Source: Elusimicrobiota bacterium
GTDB lineage: Bacteria > CAYTYR01 > UBA6262 > DAOVJB01
Assembly: GCA_030673425.1 (NCBI GenBank)
Contig: DAOVJB010000037.1
Coordinates: 1 to 8,907, forward strand
DNA length: 8,907 nucleotides
Reading direction: 5' to 3'
The notes beneath the pieces are model-generated. The model had not been told where the DNA came from. It did not search any database and saw nothing but the letters and a program-made list of their open reading frames with translations. The translations under genes and the position numbers were made by a program. Below are positions 1 through 8,724 of the stretch, piece after piece (within the stretch, counting starts at the first letter, position 1; each line of letters begins with the position of its first letter).

Positions 1-3000
1 AACAACTATCGTACCAGCATCAACATTAGCATCTACAACAGTCACTTCTTTATTAGCCATCTTATAGCTCATCTTCCACGGGAAGATTCTTAGCACGTAT
101 TCACCGGCAGGAACATGGACCAATTCAAAAGAGGCGCTTCTGTTACTTAAATTACCCAGATCACTTCTGAAGTCAACTTTTGTTTCGGCTAATTGCTGCC
201 ATCCTCCACTGGTTGGAAATATCCCTATGAAGAATCCATCTTCTTCGCCGCCTACAGGTCTCTGAATGCTACCGGTAATACTATAACCATCGGTCAACGC
301 GAAATTTACACCGGTCTTGGTTTCCCCGCTTCCAACAGAAACATTCTGAGATGTTCCTGCTAAATCTTTAGGAGGAGGACCCCAGTACTCTCCAGTAGGC
401 TCTGTAAGAGTCATTGGCGGATTAACTACATATATATCTTCACTTAATCCTTCTATCGCATATGTAGCTACTCCTGCTGTTATACGTACTACACCCATAT
501 AAGGTACAGCCCATCCCATCCAGCTCATACGCATCGGAATAGCTGTAGCATACTTTCCATCTAAACTATCAACTGAATATGTAGCACTATCCACTGTAAT
601 AGTTCCTGTAATTGCTCCTCCTGCAGTCAATCCTAAAACAACGCCTGTTAATGATTCTCCATTGGCTAAAGGTGTTCTTTCTGTTACTGTTCCAAAGGCT
701 CCTGTTGGTACTCCTAAAGGAGCGCTAGTTGATGGCTTCACATAATATTCATTAACAGTAAGGATATATTCACCAGTACCTAAACCTGTAATAGAAAATG
801 CGCCATTAGCATCAATATCAGAATAGCTGGGCTCCTGCCAGCTACCCCACCATGGTTCACGACACGTTACCCTTACATCGGCAGCAGTACTAAAGCCTGT
901 AACTGTACCCGCAATTGAACCTGCATAACCTGATAAGGTTATGTTCTGTCCCGTAACCTCTGTTTCACCTGAAGGTATCGTAACCTCCAGAGGTCGAGGA
1001 CTCATCTCATATCCGAACAGCCAGCAATCAAGATGATAGGTAGCCCCGTCAGCTAACCCGGAAATAGTATATGCTACACTCTGGTCCACCCCTTTAGGAA
1101 TTCGAACCTGTGTTCCGGTCCCATAATGACTGCTTGGTGACCAGGCATTCAGCCATAACTGAATTTCAGTTGAACTATCACCTTCCCATGCGCTGTAATT
1201 AGTGGTATCTCCTGAAATGGTAATTGTTCCTTTGATTTTAGCTCCCGCTACAAAGGTATAATCTATATCTGGTACATCCGCTGCACTTGCTACTGCAACA
1301 GTGCTAGCATATTCACCCATTTTATATTGGCCCCATATCTGGAACTTAACATTATATGTAGCATCCAATAGGCTCCTGATTGTATAAGTAGCTGTGCTTT
1401 CCCCTTCCTGCATATGAGTTCCGCCCCAGCCGAAATATTTATCATCCGTGCTGTGTGCTGAAACATCAACAAAGAACCCTCCTACAGGAGCTGCATCGCT
1501 TCCAGGTAAGGTAACCGTTCCGCTTATGGTACCAGCCTTCACCATTGTTATGTCTACGTTGCTGGTTGTTTCACCTGATACAACGCTAATATCTTCCTTT
1601 AATTCTGAACCAAATCCTTCCATCTCTGCCCGCACATTATATGTACCAGCAGGCATATGGAGTTGATAATCTTTTGTCTGTTCAGCACCAGTTGCCTGCA
1701 CATCAAAACCAGCCCAACCATGCTGTGGACTCATCGGACTCCAAGCATTAATATTTAACCATGCCCATTCATGGGTTCCCCATTGGTCAGTAAATGCATT
1801 GAATGCAGGTATTGTGATTGTTCCTGAAATTGTTCCGCCGCTTAGTAATTCAAAATTAATACCTGATTTTACTGCACCTGCTGCAACTATTACCTCCTGT
1901 TGATAATCTGCATTAGGATAGCCGCTTTCTCCGCCTTCAGTATTGACATGATAACTTCCAGGCGCTAAACCTGATATTTCATATGCCCCGGTACTGTCAG
2001 TATAACTAGATCCCCAACTTGCGGGACCTCCTGCATTTACCCTGACACCGGCAATACCAACTCCTGCTGTAGTCTTAACCGTTCCTGAAATTCCTGCAGT
2101 CTGTACTGTAATTGTTAAAGGATCATCACTGGTATCAGGACTTGTCCAGTCAGCACCGTAATTCTCCCATGAAATTCCGTCATCTTCATTCCACCAAGGT
2201 GAGTCCACTGCTACCTTAACCTTATATGTTTCGTTAGGTACAGCATTCCAGTTTCCATCACGACCTTCCCATGAAACTGTTTTAGTTACACTATTCTCAG
2301 CATCTAAATCTGTAGAGTTTATCCATTCATCCCTTGACCAGTCGTAATCTGCCTGCAGGGCATTAAATTTATCCCAGCTTAATTTATAGTCAAGTTTCGC
2401 AGATGCAGTCAAACCATCAAACCAATCCCACGTAGATAGATCAGTATCAATAGTAGTATCATCTCCTGCTGTAGCCATATATACATAAGGACCGCCATTC
2501 TCATCCCAGAAGTAACTCTCATGATTAAATGCCGCAAAGATGCCATCCTGGTTGGTATCTACAATAATCTTAATCTGAGCGCTCTTCTGCCAGTCATCAG
2601 TAGCACCTGTAATGCTAAAAGGAATACTTATCTCTGACATATCATCTGTCCCATCATTATCAGGACTGATAGTAGTCGGACTTGCTGAGAGATTTGTAAC
2701 AGTAGGCACAGGCGCCAGTTCTAAAAGTGTAAAATCTATATATTGAGTTGAGGTATCCGTATCCTGGTAACTTACCCAGTGGTCAAAAGGATAAGCATAA
2801 TAACCAGCTATGAACAGTTTAATTACATACTGATAGCTTCCAGTGGTATCCAGGTCTAATCCTGTCAACTCATAGTTATATTGCTGATCACCAGTCCCGC
2901 TGAAACTTGCCGTACTGGTAGTAGAAGCAAGTTCCACATCATTATCAGGATTCCAGTCCCCCTGGGTATCAAAAATTTTCACCGTAACATCTCCAACAGC

Positions 3001-3843
3001 AGTCCCTTGATACATCCAAGATGACCACGGGTCATATTCTGCAGGAACTGTCCCAACAGCTCCCCTTAATGTAAAAGGAGCACCCATAGCAGCAGCTCTA
3101 TATTCAAAGGAGATGGTATCATTAGTCGTATCAATATTTGTAACCCTGATCGCTGCTACGGCTCCGGCTGTAGTATCAAGTATATATCCGTATCCAACCG
3201 CAGGAGTTTCTATGCTCGTCCCTGCACCTTCTAAATTTGTTTCAGTAATAGATTCCAGTGTTGACTTTTCTCCAACACTTAATATACCATTCTGTCCTTC
3301 AATACCCATAAAGGTCGTATAACATAAATCTGTAGATACTCCTGGATCCCAGGCCTCCGCTACATCATTATCAATATCCAATCCATCACCATCCAACGTG
3401 AGTGTAGTTGCTAATACCGCAATTGTAAGCTGAACGTTTGAACTTTCATCAGGAGGCCACGCCAGAGGATCACCATGAGTAGGAGCAAGCAGTACGTTAT
3501 ATGTTCCTTCCGGAACAGGATTACCCTGATAATCACCGCCACGCCAGTATATCGTGGTTTGACCTAGATCAAGGCTTTGCAGGCCTAGATTATAATCGTC
3601 ACCGTGATCCCAAGCTCCGACTGTACCGGCATCTGTTCTATCTAACACAATACATTGATCAGCAATAGCACCTTCACTAACAATATCAAACTGAAATACT
3701 CCAGTTGCACCATCTGCAAAAGTGGCAGAAGTCTCGCCGTTTACCAGAACAGTAGTAACGGCCGCCTCTGCCATGTTGACTAAACCCATTGAGAGCAAAC
3801 TAATTAATCCGAACAGCATAACTTTTTTTATCCTGTTACACAT
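1..3843 (-). CDS. Giant secreted multi-domain repeat protein (FlgD/Ig-like plus carboxypeptidase-regulatory-like repeats), 3' end outside window
   Basis: I read 1281 codons in this frame from 3843 to the left edge and found no stop, so the gene is 3'-partial. The ATG at 3843 is chosen because AGGAGG (3852-3857) lies 8 bases upstream; the in-frame ATG at 3849 is only 2 bases from it. Residues 1-28 form a signal peptide: basic MCNRIKK, a hydrophobic core, then cleavage near AEA/A. Residues about 30-140 end in a FlgD/Ig-like strand pair (YWRGGDYQGNPVPEGTY), and an Asp-rich LDGDGLDIDND follows near 147. A second FlgD/Ig-like region spans about 380-550 (ISPDNDGTDD, later WEGRDGNWNAVPNETY). From about 580 at least seven beta-sandwich repeats of 85-110 residues begin with GxIxGTI/V (near 582, 667, 772, 868, 976, 1077, 1188). 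The first is a clear carboxypeptidase-regulatory-like domain (TDSTGAYEISGLAPGSYHV). No enzymatic motif was seen. It is likely a secreted or surface stalk. The c-di-GMP riboswitch leader suggests an adhesive or matrix role, which is inference. Confidence 0.9.
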   Translation of the reverse strand, partial: MCNRIKKVMLFGLISLLSMGLVNMAEAAVTTVLVNGETSATFADGATGVFQFDIVSEGAIADQCIVLDRTDAGTVGAWDHGDDYNLGLQSLDLGQTTIYWRGGDYQGNPVPEGTYNVLLAPTHGDPLAWPPDESSNVQLTIAVLATTLTLDGDGLDIDNDVAEAWDPGVSTDLCYTTFMGIEGQNGILSVGEKSTLESITETNLEGAGTSIETPAVGYGYILDTTAGAVAAIRVTNIDTTNDTISFEYRAAAMGAPFTLRGAVGTVPAEYDPWSSWMYQGTAVGDVTVKIFDTQGDWNPDNDVELASTTSTASFSGTGDQQYNYELTGLDLDTTGSYQYVIKLFIAGYYAYPFDHWVSYQDTDTSTQYIDFTLLELAPVPTVTNLSASPTTISPDNDGTDDMSEISIPFSITGATDDWQKSAQIKIIVDTNQDGIFAAFNHESYFWDENGGPYVYMATAGDDTTIDTDLSTWDWFDGLTASAKLDYKLSWDKFNALQADYDWSRDEWINSTDLDAENSVTKTVSWEGRDGNWNAVPNETYKVKVAVDSPWWNEDDGISWENYGADWTSPDTSDDPLTITVQTAGISGTVKTTAGVGIAGVRVNAGGPASWGSSYTDSTGAYEISGLAPGSYHVNTEGGESGYPNADYQQEVIVAAGAVKSGINFELLSGGTISGTITIPAFNAFTDQWGTHEWAWLNINAWSPMSPQHGWAGFDVQATGAEQTKDYQLHMPAGTYNVRAEMEGFGSELKEDISVVSGETTSNVDITMVKAGTISGTVTLPGSDAAPVGGFFVDVSAHSTDDKYFGWGGTHMQEGESTATYTIRSLLDATYNVKFQIWGQYKMGEYASTVAVASAADVPDIDYTFVAGAKIKGTITISGDTTNYSAWEGDSSTEIQLWLNAWSPSSHYGTGTQVRIPKGVDQSVAYTISGLADGATYHLDCWLFGYEMSPRPLEVTIPSGETEVTGQNITLSGYAGSIAGTVTGFSTAADVRVTCREPWWGSWQEPSYSDIDANGAFSITGLGTGEYILTVNEYYVKPSTSAPLGVPTGAFGTVTERTPLANGESLTGVVLGLTAGGAITGTITVDSATYSVDSLDGKYATAIPMRMSWMGWAVPYMGVVRITAGVATYAIEGLSEDIYVVNPPMTLTEPTGEYWGPPPKDLAGTSQNVSVGSGETKTGVNFALTDGYSITGSIQRPVGGEEDGFFIGIFPTSGGWQQLAETKVDFRSDLGNLSNRSASFELVHVPAGEYVLRIFPWKMSYKMANKEVTVVDANVDAGTIVV

Positions 3844-3926
3844 AACCATTTCCTCCTTTTTTGATTAAAATTTTTTCTAACTTATCCTCCTTAAATAGCA
3901 TATATATCAAATACTCCTAATAAATT

Positions 3927-3955
3927 ATTTTATTCTTATCTGTAAACTTTGTCAA
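3927..3955 (-). promoter_or_regulatory. Second sigma70-like promoter, downstream of the riboswitch terminator
   Basis: TTGACA at 3955-3950, a 17-base spacer, then TAAAAT at 3932-3927. This is a perfect -35, optimal spacing and a 5/6 match at -10. Transcription would start around 3920, about 75 bases before the start codon of the large gene. It lies after the riboswitch terminator, so its transcripts would lack the c-di-GMP aptamer. The -35 falls inside a possible 16-codon reading frame (3917-3967), so the two interpretations compete. The region is AT-rich, which raises the chance of a fortuitous -10. Confidence 0.5.
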
Positions 3956-3986
3956 GAATTTTTTCATTCTTTCCTCTTTATTCCAT

Positions 3987-4025
3987 AAAAATTGCCGGGA
4001 TTTGCGCTCTTGGCAAACCTCGGCA
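3987..4025 (-). terminator. Intrinsic terminator forming the riboswitch expression platform
   Basis: The RNA hairpin pairs TGCCG (4025-4021) with CGGCA (3997-3993), GG (4019-4018) with CC (3999-3998), and TTTGC (4017-4013) with GCAAA (4005-4001). A4020 and T4000 are single-base bulges and the loop has 7 bases. An A and five T residues follow directly (3992-3987). That makes about 12 base pairs plus a U-tract, a normal Rho-independent terminator, placed between the c-di-GMP aptamer and the large gene. Its 5' arm (4022-4012) is also fully complementary to the aptamer strand at 4113-4103, so the terminator and that alternative pairing exclude each other. Confidence 0.8.
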
Positions 4026-4037
4026 TAGATTCTCTTT

Positions 4038-4122
4038 CTACTTCGGCAACCCAGCCCCCCGACCTTGCGTCGGGACTGTTGGCTTTGCGTCCCCCGATTA
4101 CTCGAGGTTTGCCTTTATCGGT
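4038..4122 (-). ncRNA. Cyclic-di-GMP class I riboswitch (GEMM-I) aptamer
   Basis: Read on the minus strand, the segment has the conserved GEMM-I blocks in order. GGCAAACC (4113-4106) comes first. A P2-type hairpin follows, with CCTCGA paired to TCGGGG and closed by a GNRA tetraloop GTAA (4101-4098). Next is GACGCAAAGCC (4091-4081), then a second hairpin with CCCGAC (4074-4069) and GTCGGG (4063-4058), and finally GGGTTGCCGAA (4052-4042). By hand alignment to Vibrio cholerae Vc2 recalled from memory, the ligand-contacting G, A and C (G20, A47, C92) are kept. The RNA sits about 20 bases after a predicted transcription start and is followed by a terminator and the large secreted-protein gene, the normal place for a cis-acting switch. 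The exact ends are approximate. An Infernal search with the Rfam c-di-GMP-I model would settle it. Confidence 0.93.
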
Positions 4123-4149: not shown

Positions 4150-4177
4150 ACTATACCACCACTTACGGTGTTGTCAA
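4150..4177 (-). promoter_or_regulatory. Sigma70-type promoter for the riboswitch leader and large gene
   Basis: TTGACA at 4177-4172, a 16-base spacer, TATAGT at 4155-4150. The predicted start is near 4143, which places the aptamer at the very beginning of the transcript. The -35 begins 18 bases beyond the tolR stop, and no terminator hairpin is visible between them. The spacer contains a short inverted repeat, CACC-GTAAGT-GGTG (4170-4157), which could be an operator or chance. Confidence 0.75.
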
Positions 4178-4195: not shown

Positions 4196-4597
4196 CTATC
4201 TTTTGACTTCTGTTGCAATAGCGAGCTTCTCTGCTCCGGCTAATTTTGCCTTGTCCATTATCTCTACAACCGTCCCGTGCAACACTCTTTTGTCTGCTTT
4301 AATAATCAATACTTTGTCCTTCCTGTCGAGAAAAACATTTTTCAACTCCGGCAGGAGATCCTTCATCGCTATTCTTTTCTCGTTCAGGAATATCTTCTTG
4401 TCTTTGCTTACGGTTAATATCAACTGTCTTTCTAACTGGGCTTGGGAGGTTATTGCTTCAGGCAGCTTAATCTTAATTCCGGGCTGTATGATAAAAGAAG
4501 AGGAAAGCATAAAAAATATTAACAGCAGAAATACCACATCAGCCATCGGCGCGGCATCAGAACGAATAAAAGGATGCGAACGTCTCTTAAATTTCAT
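4196..4597 (-). CDS. tolR: TolR/ExbD-family proton-channel subunit
   Basis: Inner-membrane partner of TolQ that uses the proton motive force to drive the Tol-Pal envelope machine. The 133-residue product has a basic cytoplasmic start and one membrane helix (about 18-34) with the family motif PMADVVFLLLIFFM. Asp20 is the expected proton-carrying residue. The periplasmic part ends in the usual IIKADK...GTVVEIMDKAKLAGAEKLAIAT-type fold (about 98-129). The length is close to that of E. coli TolR. The ATG at 4597 is preferred because GAGAGG (4606-4611) lies 8 bases upstream. A GTG at 4606 would add three residues but uses part of that ribosome binding site. The gene overlaps the end of tolQ by 11 bases, so translational coupling is likely. 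ExbD rather than TolR cannot be ruled out by sequence alone, but the tolB/pal neighbourhood favours Tol. Confidence 0.93.
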   Translation of the reverse strand: MKFKRRSHPFIRSDAAPMADVVFLLLIFFMLSSSFIIQPGIKIKLPEAITSQAQLERQLILTVSKDKKIFLNEKRIAMKDLLPELKNVFLDRKDKVLIIKADKRVLHGTVVEIMDKAKLAGAEKLAIATEVKR

Positions 4598-5234
4598 CTT
4601 TATCACCTCTCTTGGAGAGGAAGTATACTAATTCCGTGGAACTCTTCTCTATCTGCAGGATAAAACGGTCTACCCTGTGGCTAAGGTAATTATAAAAGAC
4701 TAAAGCCGGAATAGCAATAAGTAAACCTGTAGCGGTTGTGGTTAACGCTTCCGCTATTCCGTTTGCAACAATACTGGGTGATGAAACACCCACCAGAGCA
4801 ATAGCATTAAAAGCACGAATCATCCCAAATACTGTTCCTGTAAAACCCAACAGCGTTGCAATACTACCAATGGTATGAAGTACAGGCAGATACTCCTCAA
4901 GACGTGGAACTTCACTTAACCCAGCGGTCTGCATTACTTCTTCCATGGCTAATCTTCCGTTGGCTTTCTCCTTCAGACCCTCTCCGAGTATATGGGCTAC
5001 AGGACCAGGAGTAGAATCACAGTGAGAGATTGCTGATTTTATCTTGCCTTCCCTGGAAAATTTTATTATCTTTTGCATAAGATTCTCTACATCTGTTTTG
5101 GCTTTATGAAAAGCCCACAGTCTATTTAGAATAACAGCTACTGAGACAACCGAACACAAAAGCAATGGATACATCATTATCCCGCCCTTTTGAAAATACT
5201 GAAACAGTATACTCTTTGATAAAAATCCTAACAT
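4587..5234 (-). CDS. tolQ: TolQ/ExbB/MotA-family proton channel protein
   Basis: Channel-forming inner-membrane subunit that works with TolR to energise the trans-envelope Tol complex. The 215-residue product has the family's three membrane helices, near residues 20-39, 115-138 and 162-184. They are separated by a large cytoplasmic loop (about 42-112). The third-helix signature AEALTTTATGLLIAIPALVF (162-180 region) and the second-helix stretch GFTGTVFGMI (130-139) are clear. By alignment, Thr134 and Thr167 correspond to the pore threonines T145 and T178 of E. coli TolQ. GGAGG (5240-5244) lies 5 bases before the ATG. The gene follows tolB by 49 bases and overlaps tolR. ExbB is the alternative name; the context supports TolQ. 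Confidence 0.94.
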   Translation of the reverse strand: MLGFLSKSILFQYFQKGGIMMYPLLLCSVVSVAVILNRLWAFHKAKTDVENLMQKIIKFSREGKIKSAISHCDSTPGPVAHILGEGLKEKANGRLAMEEVMQTAGLSEVPRLEEYLPVLHTIGSIATLLGFTGTVFGMIRAFNAIALVGVSSPSIVANGIAEALTTTATGLLIAIPALVFYNYLSHRVDRFILQIEKSSTELVYFLSKRGDKDEI

Positions 5235-5283
5235 TTCTACCTCCTTTATTATTTAAATATATCCTTTATAATATATACCCCGC

Positions 5284-6582
5284 TTATGGTCCCCATGAAG
5301 GTGTGCAGCAATCACCCTGTAAAATCGAGCCTAATTCCTCCGGGAATAATTTTCTCTGATTGGAACCGTCAGATTTCATAATGTATAGTTCTCTCTTACC
5401 GCTTCTTGTAGAACTAAAAACGATATACTGCCCGTCAGGCGAAAATGACGGATTCTCGTTACTGCCTGCATCATGGGTTAATTTCTTTACATCAGTTCCG
5501 TCAGGTAACATAGTGTAAATATCAAATTTGCCAGAAAACCTTGAAACATAGACTATCTTGCCCCCCCTCGGACTCCAGCAACTGGAATCATTGTAGCTCC
5601 CATGGTAGGTTAAGCGTCTCAGGTTGGTACCTTCTCTATCCATGGTATATATCTGGGGAGTTCCGGCCCGACCGGATGTAAAAGTTATCTCCCTGCCGTT
5701 AGGCGCCCAGCACGCGGATATATCAGCAGCCCGGCTGTAAGTCAGACGACGGATAACTTTGCCGTTTGATTTAAGCAAGTAAACCTCAGGATTGCCATCT
5801 TTACTTAGTGTTATCACAATATACCTGCCGTCAGGAGAATAATCGCCGCTGACATTTAAACCCTGGAACTTAGCAAGCGGCTTGGCGGTAAATTTTTTCA
5901 GATCAAAAATATATAAGTCGGGATTTCTCCTCTTGTAGGAAGTATAAATAATCTTCTCACCGTCTTGCGACCATCTCGGCAATAGATTAATTGATCTGTC
6001 ATTGGTTAACCTTTGAAGATTATATCCGTCATAATCGGTTATAAAAACCTCCTTATTTCCTCTAATTTCAGAAACGAAAGCAATCTTAGTATGAGCAATA
6101 CCCTTTGTTCCCATAAAGCTGTAAACTATTTCATCGCTGACTTCATGTACAAGGTAGCGCAGATATTTCTTGTCTGTTTTGAATCTTTTGCCCATAATCC
6201 TCTGAGCTTTTGTTACATCAAAAACATGGCATTCTATAGTTAACTTTTCATCTTCCTGTTTATATGTGCCCTTAAGAATAGCATCTATACCTAAACTTTC
6301 CAAAGCTTTATAATCTTTACCATGATAGGTTGTGCCCTGTTTTATAATAAATATCCCTGAGAAGTTCAGGTCGTTCCTTACTATATCCGTGATTTTTCTT
6401 GAAAGATTATCACTGTCAGCCGAAGCCCGCTCGCTTACAAAATCGGGTACAAAAATAGTTATTTTCTTAGCAAGTTTAGATACATCCAAATAAACATCCG
6501 CCGCATATGTATCTTTTAGAGAAACAAAAAACATAAGCAACATTATTAATATATATATTGTATAAGTTATTACTCTTTTCAT
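5284..6582 (-). CDS. tolB: TolB, periplasmic beta-propeller of the Tol-Pal system
   Basis: Periplasmic protein that bridges Pal and the inner-membrane Tol complex. The 432-residue product is almost exactly the E. coli TolB length. Residues 1-27 are a signal peptide (basic MKR, long hydrophobic core, cleavage near TYA/A). An N-terminal alpha/beta domain follows (about 30-155, including FVPDF and GIDAILKGTY). Then come six TolB/WD40-like blades with repeated W/FSPDG-type turns: RWSQDGEKI, DYSPDGRYI, CWAPNGREI, CWSPRGGKI, SFSPDGQYI, and a last strand ending PSWGP. The ATG at 6582 has a modest AGGG (6590-6593) 7 bases upstream. It starts 20 bases after the tonB/tolA-like stop, so the two are likely co-transcribed. 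Confidence 0.96.
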   Translation of the reverse strand: MKRVITYTIYILIMLLMFFVSLKDTYAADVYLDVSKLAKKITIFVPDFVSERASADSDNLSRKITDIVRNDLNFSGIFIIKQGTTYHGKDYKALESLGIDAILKGTYKQEDEKLTIECHVFDVTKAQRIMGKRFKTDKKYLRYLVHEVSDEIVYSFMGTKGIAHTKIAFVSEIRGNKEVFITDYDGYNLQRLTNDRSINLLPRWSQDGEKIIYTSYKRRNPDLYIFDLKKFTAKPLAKFQGLNVSGDYSPDGRYIVITLSKDGNPEVYLLKSNGKVIRRLTYSRAADISACWAPNGREITFTSGRAGTPQIYTMDREGTNLRRLTYHGSYNDSSCWSPRGGKIVYVSRFSGKFDIYTMLPDGTDVKKLTHDAGSNENPSFSPDGQYIVFSSTRSGKRELYIMKSDGSNQRKLFPEELGSILQGDCCTPSWGP

Positions 6583-6602
6583 TATATATCCCTATATATC
6601 CC

Positions 6603-7238
6603 TTAGAATTCAAATTCTTCTATCTTAAACGTGAGATGTACTCCCAGGTAATTCTCGTTAAAACCTACGGGCAGAGGAGGAAAAGGTTCGGATTGAACTA
6701 TTGCCCTTAATGCCGAACGGTCCAGAAAAGAAATTCCTGATGTTTTTTCTACAGATATATCCTTTACTTTTCCGTTTCTTAAAATCTTAAAAAATATCAC
6801 CACTTGTGCCTGACCTGTCCCTTTTTGAGGATGCCAGTTTCTATTGATCTTGATTCGTATTATATCTAAATAATAATTGAAAGGAAATCTTTCTACTTTT
6901 ATTTCTACTGAAGAAGGCAAGGTTTTAGAACTTGCCGAAGGTTCTTTTTTTAGTTTCCTGGGTGTTCTTTTCAGTTTTTCGCTTAAGCTCTTGGATGCCT
7001 TCTGAATTCTCTTAAAAATCTTTTGACGTTTTAACGGGACCTCTTTTTTAATCTGCGGTTTTTTTATTGTCTTTGGTACCACTTCTTTAATCTTCTCAGG
7101 TTGTATATTTACCAATTCCACCGGGGATACAGACCATTGAACTACCCTGCGGCGAAAAAAAATATCCCATGCCCCCAAGCTGAAAATAATAACATGGATA
7201 AAAAGAGATATCAATAAAGTTTTTTTTAATGTTATCAT
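6603..7238 (-). CDS. TonB/TolA-like energy transducer with C-terminal TonB domain
   Basis: Probable TolA-equivalent that carries energy from TolQR to TolB/Pal across the periplasm. Counting from the ATG at 7238 the product has 211 residues. One membrane helix spans about 7-26 and contains Ser11-x3-His15, matching the S-x3-H motif that TonB and TolA use to contact their proton channels. A strongly basic, Lys/Pro-containing linker covers about 48-100. The C-terminal TonB-type domain runs about 118-211 (YYLDIIRIKINRNWHP, then VIFFKILRNGKVKDISVEKT and ALRAIVQSEPFPPLP). It lacks the long helical domain II of E. coli TolA and is half its length. The start is uncertain: GTGAGG (7242-7247) is only 3 bases before the ATG, and an in-frame GTG at 7247 would add three residues. 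The position directly before tolB argues for a Tol role, not siderophore import. Confidence 0.88.
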   Translation of the reverse strand: MITLKKTLLISLFIHVIIFSLGAWDIFFRRRVVQWSVSPVELVNIQPEKIKEVVPKTIKKPQIKKEVPLKRQKIFKRIQKASKSLSEKLKRTPRKLKKEPSASSKTLPSSVEIKVERFPFNYYLDIIRIKINRNWHPQKGTGQAQVVIFFKILRNGKVKDISVEKTSGISFLDRSALRAIVQSEPFPPLPVGFNENYLGVHLTFKIEEFEF

Positions 7239-7270
7239 TAGCCTCACTACATTTGCCCGATATAAAATAG

Positions 7271-7318
7271 AGGGGTCAGACTCCTGAGTTTTATTATTGA
7301 TTCAGATGTCAGACCCCT
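7271..7318. repeat. Imperfect long inverted repeat of REP/MITE type between cpoB-like gene and tonB/tolA-like gene
   Basis: The left arm AGGGGTCAGACTCCTGA (7271-7287) and right arm TCAGATGTCAGACCCCT (7302-7318) match as inverted repeats at 14 of 17 positions, with a 14-base AT-rich loop. The AGGGGTCAGAC/GTCTGACCCCT core resembles palindromes I associate with REP elements and REP-associated tyrosine transposases, a resemblance from memory and not a search. Only one copy occurs in the window. As RNA it would make a strong hairpin between the two halves of the Tol cluster. On the minus strand it is followed by CTCTATTTTATAT, a poor U-tract, so it may stabilise or attenuate the message rather than terminate it cleanly. 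Confidence 0.7.
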
Positions 7319-7340
7319 GATTCTTTTCTTAAAATACGGG

Positions 7341-8132
7341 TTACTCCGCAGTCTTTTTGATTCCTTTTATCATTTGCAGCTTTTCCTGAGCTAATTTCAC
7401 TTCCTTGATAGATGCAGGATATTCATCTATTATATGTTCCAATAGTTCCCGGGCCTCATCTTTTTTATCCATCTCATAGAGACTGAAGGCTACCTTTAAC
7501 TTAGCTGTTGGGACCTTGGCGCTACGCGGATATAAATCAACGACATTATTAAATTCCTGAATCGCTTTTTCAAACTCACCCTTACTGTAATAGCACTCGC
7601 CTATCCAGTATTGGGCACTGGGAGCAAGCTCGCCCTGAGGATATTTCTTCAAATAATCCCTGAAGCCAACAATTGATAGATCATAGCTTCCACTTATATA
7701 ATCACCATAGGCAACCTGATATAAATCTGTTGGTTTAAGAATCTTTTTTGAAACAGTCTCCTCTTTTGTTCCTCCAGTAGCAGGTTGCATGGAAGATAAC
7801 CGCTGTTGGAGTTGCATAATTTTTATCTCTAAATCATCCAATCCCTGGGAAACTTTGGAGATTTTATTCTTATTCTCTCGCAATCCCTCCTCTAATATCT
7901 GCAGATTATTCTTTATCTCTTCGAATTCCAACACTAAATTCGTTTCATTACTCTGAACGGTCTTATGAAACTTCGTATAACTCCTGGTAAGCTCGTTCAG
8001 CTGTCTCTGCATCTGCTTTACACTATGCTCTAATCCTGTCATATCCTGTGTTGTTGCAAAACATCCGGCAAGAGAAACATAAAGTATAAAACATAAACCA
8101 TATATGAGAAACTTTTTCAAGGTTCCTAACAT
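7341..8132 (-). CDS. CpoB/YbgF-like coiled-coil and TPR protein, lipoprotein form
   Basis: Probable envelope protein of the Tol-Pal system; in E. coli CpoB links Tol to peptidoglycan synthesis at division. The 263-residue product starts with a lipoprotein signal peptide ending in the lipobox LAGC, with Cys24 as the lipidated residue. A heptad-like coiled coil follows (about 33-115). The C-terminal tetratricopeptide repeats (about 137-255) show the YbgF pattern: DLYQVAYGDYISGSYDLSIV, then YPQGELAPSAQYWIGECYYSKG, then a third repeat near YPRSAKVPTAKLKVAFSLYE. E. coli CpoB is a soluble periplasmic protein, so the lipid anchor is a difference. GGAG (8139-8142) lies 6 bases before the ATG. It begins 19 bases after the pal stop, in the same operon. 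BamD-like TPR lipoproteins are a weaker alternative. Confidence 0.9.
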   Translation of the reverse strand: MLGTLKKFLIYGLCFILYVSLAGCFATTQDMTGLEHSVKQMQRQLNELTRSYTKFHKTVQSNETNLVLEFEEIKNNLQILEEGLRENKNKISKVSQGLDDLEIKIMQLQQRLSSMQPATGGTKEETVSKKILKPTDLYQVAYGDYISGSYDLSIVGFRDYLKKYPQGELAPSAQYWIGECYYSKGEFEKAIQEFNNVVDLYPRSAKVPTAKLKVAFSLYEMDKKDEARELLEHIIDEYPASIKEVKLAQEKLQMIKGIKKTAE

Positions 8133-8151
8133 CTACTACTCCAAATACAGG

Positions 8152-8724
8152 TTAATTTTCAACTATAGCCAAGATGTGCGCTCTTCTGTTGCGCGCCCAT
8201 GCCTCTTCATCATGCCCGATGTCAACCGGTTTTTCTTCGCCATAACTGATGGTATTAATCCTCTTAGACTCAATACCTAAAGTAATAAGGTACTTCCTTA
8301 CCATAACAGCCCTTCTTTGCCCCAGGGCTAAGTTATACTCTATGGTTCCACGTTCATCACAATGTCCTTCTACAAGAACTTTAACTTTGGAATTCTCCTT
8401 TAACCATTCAGCATTCGCAGCCAGAATCTTGCGGGCCCGCGATGTAATATCGGATTTATCAAATTCAAAGTAAATATCCTTAATCTTAGGAAGTTCTTTT
8501 ACCTCTTTGATATCTATCGGTTCCTCCGGAGGAAACTCCTCTATTTTAGCTATTTCTAACTCCTCTAAAGGTTCTAACGGCTCTTCCAAAGTAAATTTCT
8601 CCAAATCTGTTGGAGTCGTTTTTACCTGTTTCTTACTACAGCCAACCGCAACCAGTCCAACCAAACTCAAAAAAACCATTATAAACGCAATTCTATGTCC
8701 CATGGTCCCAGTTTTATAAAACAT
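8152..8724 (-). CDS. pal: Pal, peptidoglycan-associated outer-membrane lipoprotein
   Basis: Anchors the outer membrane to peptidoglycan and is the outer target of TolB. The 190-residue product has a lipoprotein signal peptide with lipobox VAVGC (Cys29). An unusually acidic, Pro/Glu/Leu-rich linker covers about 38-78. The OmpA-like peptidoglycan-binding domain spans about 80-188. Diagnostic stretches are IYFEFDKSDI (84-93), VEGHCDERGT (118-127) and NLALGQRRA (131-139); these hold the conserved Asp and Arg that bind diaminopimelate in the family. GGAGG (8733-8737) lies 8 bases before the ATG at 8724. Another ATG at codon 8 has no such site. It is the first gene of the cluster, with a promoter directly upstream. 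Confidence 0.96.
   Translation of the reverse strand: MFYKTGTMGHRIAFIMVFLSLVGLVAVGCSKKQVKTTPTDLEKFTLEEPLEPLEELEIAKIEEFPPEEPIDIKEVKELPKIKDIYFEFDKSDITSRARKILAANAEWLKENSKVKVLVEGHCDERGTIEYNLALGQRRAVMVRKYLITLGIESKRINTISYGEEKPVDIGHDEEAWARNRRAHILAIVEN

Follow-up and report, generated by a model that had tools for sequence, protein, structure and literature searches.

The class I c-di-GMP riboswitches of C. difficile, among them those of the flgB operon and the PPEP-1 protease, are transcriptional OFF switches, and one of them acts on a secreted protease (PMC11477304). Two antitoxin RNAs of the same species have a stronger promoter downstream of the class I switch (PMC11477304). The residues that contact c-di-GMP in the reference aptamer Vc2 have been named (PMC9049102, PMC4744006). 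A second known system with a bearing on the locus described here is the cargo of type IX secretion, which carries a sorting domain (TIGR04183) and has a PorV-family partner.

The window, i.e., the whole stretch of 8,907 nucleotides that was analyzed, is one complete contig (C27) of an Elusimicrobiota genome of 1.32 Mb (199 contigs, 88% complete). It contains a GEMM-I element in the leader of a giant gene (Table 1). We read this element as a functional class I c-di-GMP riboswitch that would act as a transcriptional OFF switch on the giant gene, and give this reading a probability of roughly 60%; ligand binding, polarity, kinetics, promoter use and the export route of the product are what we infer. 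The element is like the RF01051 class in sequence, secondary structure, contact nucleotides, leader position and the presence of an intrinsic terminator, but differs by an anti-aptamer strand predicted to invade the core and P2, and by a target that is giant, probably type IX-exported and part of a poorly known lineage. It shares with the C. difficile class I switches the (here predicted) OFF logic and the presence of another promoter beyond the switch, and the sets of both genomes include a secreted protease target. The initial annotation placed the element at 3843-4122, an interval that holds the aptamer and the leader but leaves the upstream promoter (4177-4150) outside; the expression platform, its likely polarity, promoter 2, the type IX sorting context and the set of nine aptamers in the genome all escaped it.

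Table 1. Features of the window (numbered on its forward strand) and, in the last line, the variant aptamers of related genomes.
Feature	Position	Strand	Basis
Upstream tol-pal genes: pal, cpoB-like, tolA/tonB-like, tolB, tolQ, tolR	4196..8724	-	ORFs, domain matches
Promoter 1, TTGACA-16-TATAGT (11/12), upstream of aptamer	4150..4177	-	Consensus match
c-di-GMP class I (GEMM-I) aptamer, full-length	4041..4122	-	RF01051, 66.2 bits; RF03167, 57.7 bits
Aptamer core strand GGCAAACCUCG, pairable with terminator 5' arm	4103..4113	-	Folding, complementarity
P2 stem with GUAA tetraloop (GNRA)	4092..4107	-	Rfam structure line; covariation
Anti-aptamer strand CGAGGUUUGCC, within terminator 5' arm	4012..4022	-	Exact 11-nt reverse complement of 4113-4103
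Intrinsic terminator, stem 4025-3993 (about -16 to -17 kcal/mol) and AUUUUU tail to 3987	3987..4025	-	Folding
Promoter 2, TTGACA-17-TAAAAT (11/12), between terminator and gene	3927..3955	-	Consensus match
Ribosome-binding site AGGAGG	3852..3857	-	Read from sequence
Giant secreted repeat protein, first 1281 codons, open at contig end (position 1)	1..3843	-	ATG 3843
Seven CarboxypepD_reg-like repeats, residues about 583-1281	1..2097	-	Profile from own repeats
Upstream C20 copies of tandem pairs	L054 4466-4560; L057 7522-7613; L059 7249-7341; L063 6208-6302

Aptamer Class and Ligand

The covariance model of the c-di-GMP-I riboswitch (RF01051) scores the aptamer at 66.2 bits, above its curated cut-off of 35, while that of the c-di-GMP-I-GGC family (RF03167), matched over all of its 80 positions with an E value of 7.4e-12, gives 57.7 bits and falls a little short of its cut-off of 59. 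The aptamer was therefore assigned to RF01051. Every block on which the GEMM-I call had originally been made is present, namely GGCAAACC, a GUAA-capped stem, GACGCAAAGCC and GGGTTGCCGAA, and the call is borne out by the covariance search. All six P2 pairs show two-sided compensatory changes among 23 aptamers from the source genome and four relatives. By membership, the element is thus an ordinary class I c-di-GMP riboswitch.

The window aptamer has all of the Vc2 contact nucleotides (G14, G20, G21, C46, A47, and C92), under a numbering-to-letter mapping that we take from the published lists together with general knowledge of Vc2. These contacts support c-di-GMP as the ligand that would be bound. 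Aptamers for cGAMP carry A20. The presence of G20 and C92, as in c-di-GMP aptamers, makes 3',3'-cGAMP, or any other cyclic dinucleotide, a very improbable ligand, even though GEMM-Ib variants that bind cGAMP are known (PMC8835794).

Expression Platform

The terminator, which a simple terminator scan of the window did not list, begins 15 nt past the aptamer. Its 5' arm can pair with the part of the aptamer that bound ligand would lock, the core. Shuffling never reproduced the 11-nt complementarity between this arm and the aptamer, neither in 2000 dinucleotide shuffles of the 55 nt downstream nor in 500 shuffles of the 190-nt leader. In folds of growing transcripts, P2 persists until 4020. For transcripts ending at 4012-3996, in which the 3' arm of the terminator is still unfinished, the antiterminator pairing has a probability of 0.998-0.999, and at 4012 the antiterminator fold (-45.4 kcal/mol) is better by 7 to 16 kcal/mol than the aptamer-compatible folds (best P2 fold, -38.7 kcal/mol; P1+P2 fold, -29.6 kcal/mol). 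As the terminator nears completion, the antiterminator competes with it (p 0.54 to 0.44), and in the full-length transcript the terminator is ahead (p 0.79). These folds are thermodynamic, with ligand, pausing and tertiary contacts lying outside the energies, and it is in folding terms that terminator and anti-aptamer pairing are mutually exclusive. Since bound ligand would tie up the strand required for the antiterminator, termination is predicted when ligand is present. The switch is thus most likely a transcriptional OFF switch, with read-through in the absence of ligand and termination with c-di-GMP.

In the mechanism that we propose, RNA polymerase would start at promoter 1, or read through from the tol-pal genes, and produce the aptamer. 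When c-di-GMP is absent, GGCAAA in the aptamer core, being unpaired, would offer a toehold to the newly made strand CGAGGUUUGCC, which would invade the core, open P2 and be kept from its terminator partner, allowing transcription into the giant gene. Bound c-di-GMP would lock the core (G20, G21-C46, and A47) and leave the same strand free, upon which the terminator would form and transcription would stop. The giant protein would be made at low c-di-GMP, with promoter 2 adding a c-di-GMP-independent basal level.

The Giant Repeat Protein and Type IX Secretion

The N-terminus of the giant protein looks like a signal peptide. The initial annotation counted at least seven carboxypeptidase-regulatory-like repeats, and a self-built profile recovers seven strong copies (residues 584-1279), the profile being made from those same copies; in the nearest relative, which lay outside the profile building, it finds eight copies (E < 1e-4). 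Pfam alone passes only two repeat stretches. The ‘FlgD/Ig-like’ modules proposed alongside the repeats are borderline, scoring 26.0 bits where the cut-off is 27, and an AlphaFold2 model of residues 150-582 is uninformative (mean pLDDT 41.5).

This nearest relative (genome G003, JACRDM010000118.1) belongs to the same class, is 2219 aa long and shares 46% identity over residues 393-1281, and more distant relatives are encoded in five further genomes. The statement that the protein has no obvious characterized homologue holds insofar as these relatives are uncharacterized, but relatives do exist. A contig scan with the window protein as query gave no relative, and the same scan with the G003 relative matched only its own record.

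The G003 relative ends in a FlgD/T9SS type-A sorting domain (TIGR04183; 24.7 bits, cut-off 23) and is followed by a PorV-family gene (183.8 bits, cut-off 90), an arrangement like that of known type IX cargo. The suggestion of a surface or secreted target is supported. The source genome itself has an SprA_N match above cut-off on C123, ten TIGR04183 matches and PorV-like genes on several contigs. The giant protein is probably a very large outer-surface or secreted protein with type IX-like export. We infer this route from the sorting signal of the relative because the C-terminus of the window protein is unassembled. The locus differs from described type IX cargo in this unseen C-terminus and in a lineage that is Elusimicrobia rather than Bacteroidota.

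A search for the missing C-terminus in the source genome yielded only sorting domains of other proteins and no middle part. Two candidate continuations were rejected: the 2042-aa protein on C116 is independent with its own start, and C144, which has a cargo tail and a PorV-like gene, encodes a PorV that is not the best match to the G003-adjacent one.

Among the more distant relatives, those in L167 and L168 have sorting-type C-terminal domains, the former also adjoining a PorV-like gene, and the tails of those in L165 and L166 are rich in glycine and serine, the L166 protein also showing a membrane anchor. The neighbors of the giant gene are alike in G003 (L053) and G071 (L167, outside the phylum), comprising a penicillin-binding protein, a small DUF2148-like protein and the PorV-like gene. 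Sorting-domain cargo genes are repeatedly followed by their own PorV-like gene (L020, L053, L136, L138, and L141).

The pairing of switch and giant gene was seen once. An Rfam search of the loci of the relatives in five other genomes gave no match and no GEMM-I, and the leader of the G003 gene contains only sub-threshold plastid matches and no GEMM-I.

Sibling Aptamers in the Genome

Nine aptamers of the source genome score above the RF01051 cut-off; a candidate on C172 was dismissed at 31.1 bits, below the cut-off. Contig C21 has aptamers (C21a-c) before the genes of an S8 protease and of two GH113 proteins, and TIGR04183 passes its cut-off in each of the three. On C62 the aptamer precedes a PorV-OmpA gene, after which comes a GH113 gene, on C89 the gene of a PAS-GAF-HD-GYP protein, and on C190 the gene of a PilB with an MshE-type c-di-GMP-binding domain; those on C147 and C184 lie near contig ends. 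GGDEF domains have six matches in the genome. The presence of three sorting-domain genes among seven aptamer targets has a chance p of about 1.3e-5 (on an estimated 1250 genes and ten sorting-domain genes), with the three sharing one contig and not being independent. The nine aptamers apparently form an undescribed regulon of type IX-type cargo.

Two side observations concern individual siblings. The C62 aptamer starts about 47 nt past the stop codon of the preceding gene, like a 3'-UTR switch. At C190 (L025 3-437), the same signal may act on both the RNA and the PilB protein, since it is the N-terminal domain of this PilB that matches a c-di-GMP-binding motif.

The siblings differ in their platforms. 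Overlap of the terminator 5' arm with the aptamer 3' strand occurs on C184, C147, C62, and C190 and, as read by eye, on C89; these five look like ON switches because the arm and the strand are the same. Such siblings raise the option that the window element is an ON switch too, its ligand favoring read-through into the giant gene. We consider this improbable, as the window terminator lies apart from the aptamer and has the 5' arm that pairs with the ligand-locked core. In the window and C21a-c, the terminator is found 11-35 nt past the aptamer. A clear anti-aptamer signal among these four is given only by the window (0.92 to the aptamer 5' half), and OFF is less certain for C21a-c. While ON control in C. 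difficile belongs to class II, the source genome seems to obtain both polarities from one aptamer class by means of different platforms.

Two Promoters Around the Switch

Promoters 1 and 2, both predicted as consensus matches, rank above all other minus-strand promoter matches in the window and lie on both sides of the switch. Promoter 1 represents the normal layout, since seven of the nine aptamers in the genome have an 11/12 promoter upstream. Promoter 2 is different in that its transcripts would bypass the switch, and control of the giant gene may be partial or irrelevant. The switch could then be real but nearly without consequence, the giant gene being transcribed from promoter 2 and the switch doing no more than yielding a short terminated leader RNA or restricting read-through from the tol-pal genes. 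The quality of promoter 2 (11/12), with 0.018 such sites expected per 190-nt leader at the rate on the own-genome contigs examined, speaks for this alternative, as do the giant-gene relatives without the switch, the two C. difficile antitoxin RNAs, whose switch is reported to be dispensable given the downstream promoter (PMC11477304), and the C62 locus (L024 4075-4157), which has no upstream promoter match and a similar site (TTGACA-17-TATACA, 10/12) behind its terminator. We nevertheless hold it to be rather unlikely, as the switch has a promoter of its own, its aptamer is intact and its anti-aptamer strand matches exactly, features that one would expect a decaying switch to lose.

The original claim that the riboswitch controls the giant gene is thus plausible: the upstream promoter, the intrinsic terminator and the anti-aptamer strand argue for it, and promoter 2 and the missing GEMM-I before the relatives argue against it. 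We refrain from calling the gene ‘controlled’ outright, mainly because promoter 2 follows the terminator.

Tandem Aptamers in Related Genomes

All four phylum relatives compared (G001-G004, two genera) have tandem GEMM-I aptamers before an S8 protease gene. Most tandem copies have a recognizable terminator, and on the same contigs those S8 genes have TIGR04183 matches at their ends. Contact position 20 is C in the upstream copy of every one of the four genomes and G in the downstream copy. Because a change of G20 in Vc2 reduces c-di-GMP binding 30,000-fold (PMC4744006), the C20 copies may be dead, weak or specific for something else; they possibly represent an altered-ligand or inactive variant. 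The strict C20 pattern is found in three of 386 genomes, all from the set of relatives, and the fourth relative escapes it by differences in P2. Outside the phylum, G031 (L027 1512) has a GEMM-I before an apparent subtilisin-like secreted protease, hinting that the pairing of GEMM-I with subtilisin-like proteases is recurrent.

Implications

A full-text search, judged by titles and abstracts and with most subscription papers outside its reach, found no literature linking c-di-GMP riboswitches with type IX cargo, and the connection appears to be undescribed. We tentatively suggest, as a possible broader picture, that RNA governs a large part of the type IX-type secretome in an uncultivated, deep-branching lineage. 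Two opposite platforms would turn cargo (the giant repeat protein, the S8 protease, and GH113 proteins) off and the pilus-motor and HD-GYP genes on, and the tandem C20 aptamer of the relatives may sense another ligand. The OFF switch favored here would mean that c-di-GMP acts directly through RNA on type IX-type secreted proteins as well, and this in a poorly known lineage, with strand invasion as a concrete, testable mechanism. One small genome would hold sibling switches with two platform designs, and the C20 tandem variants provide a lead for altered ligand specificity.
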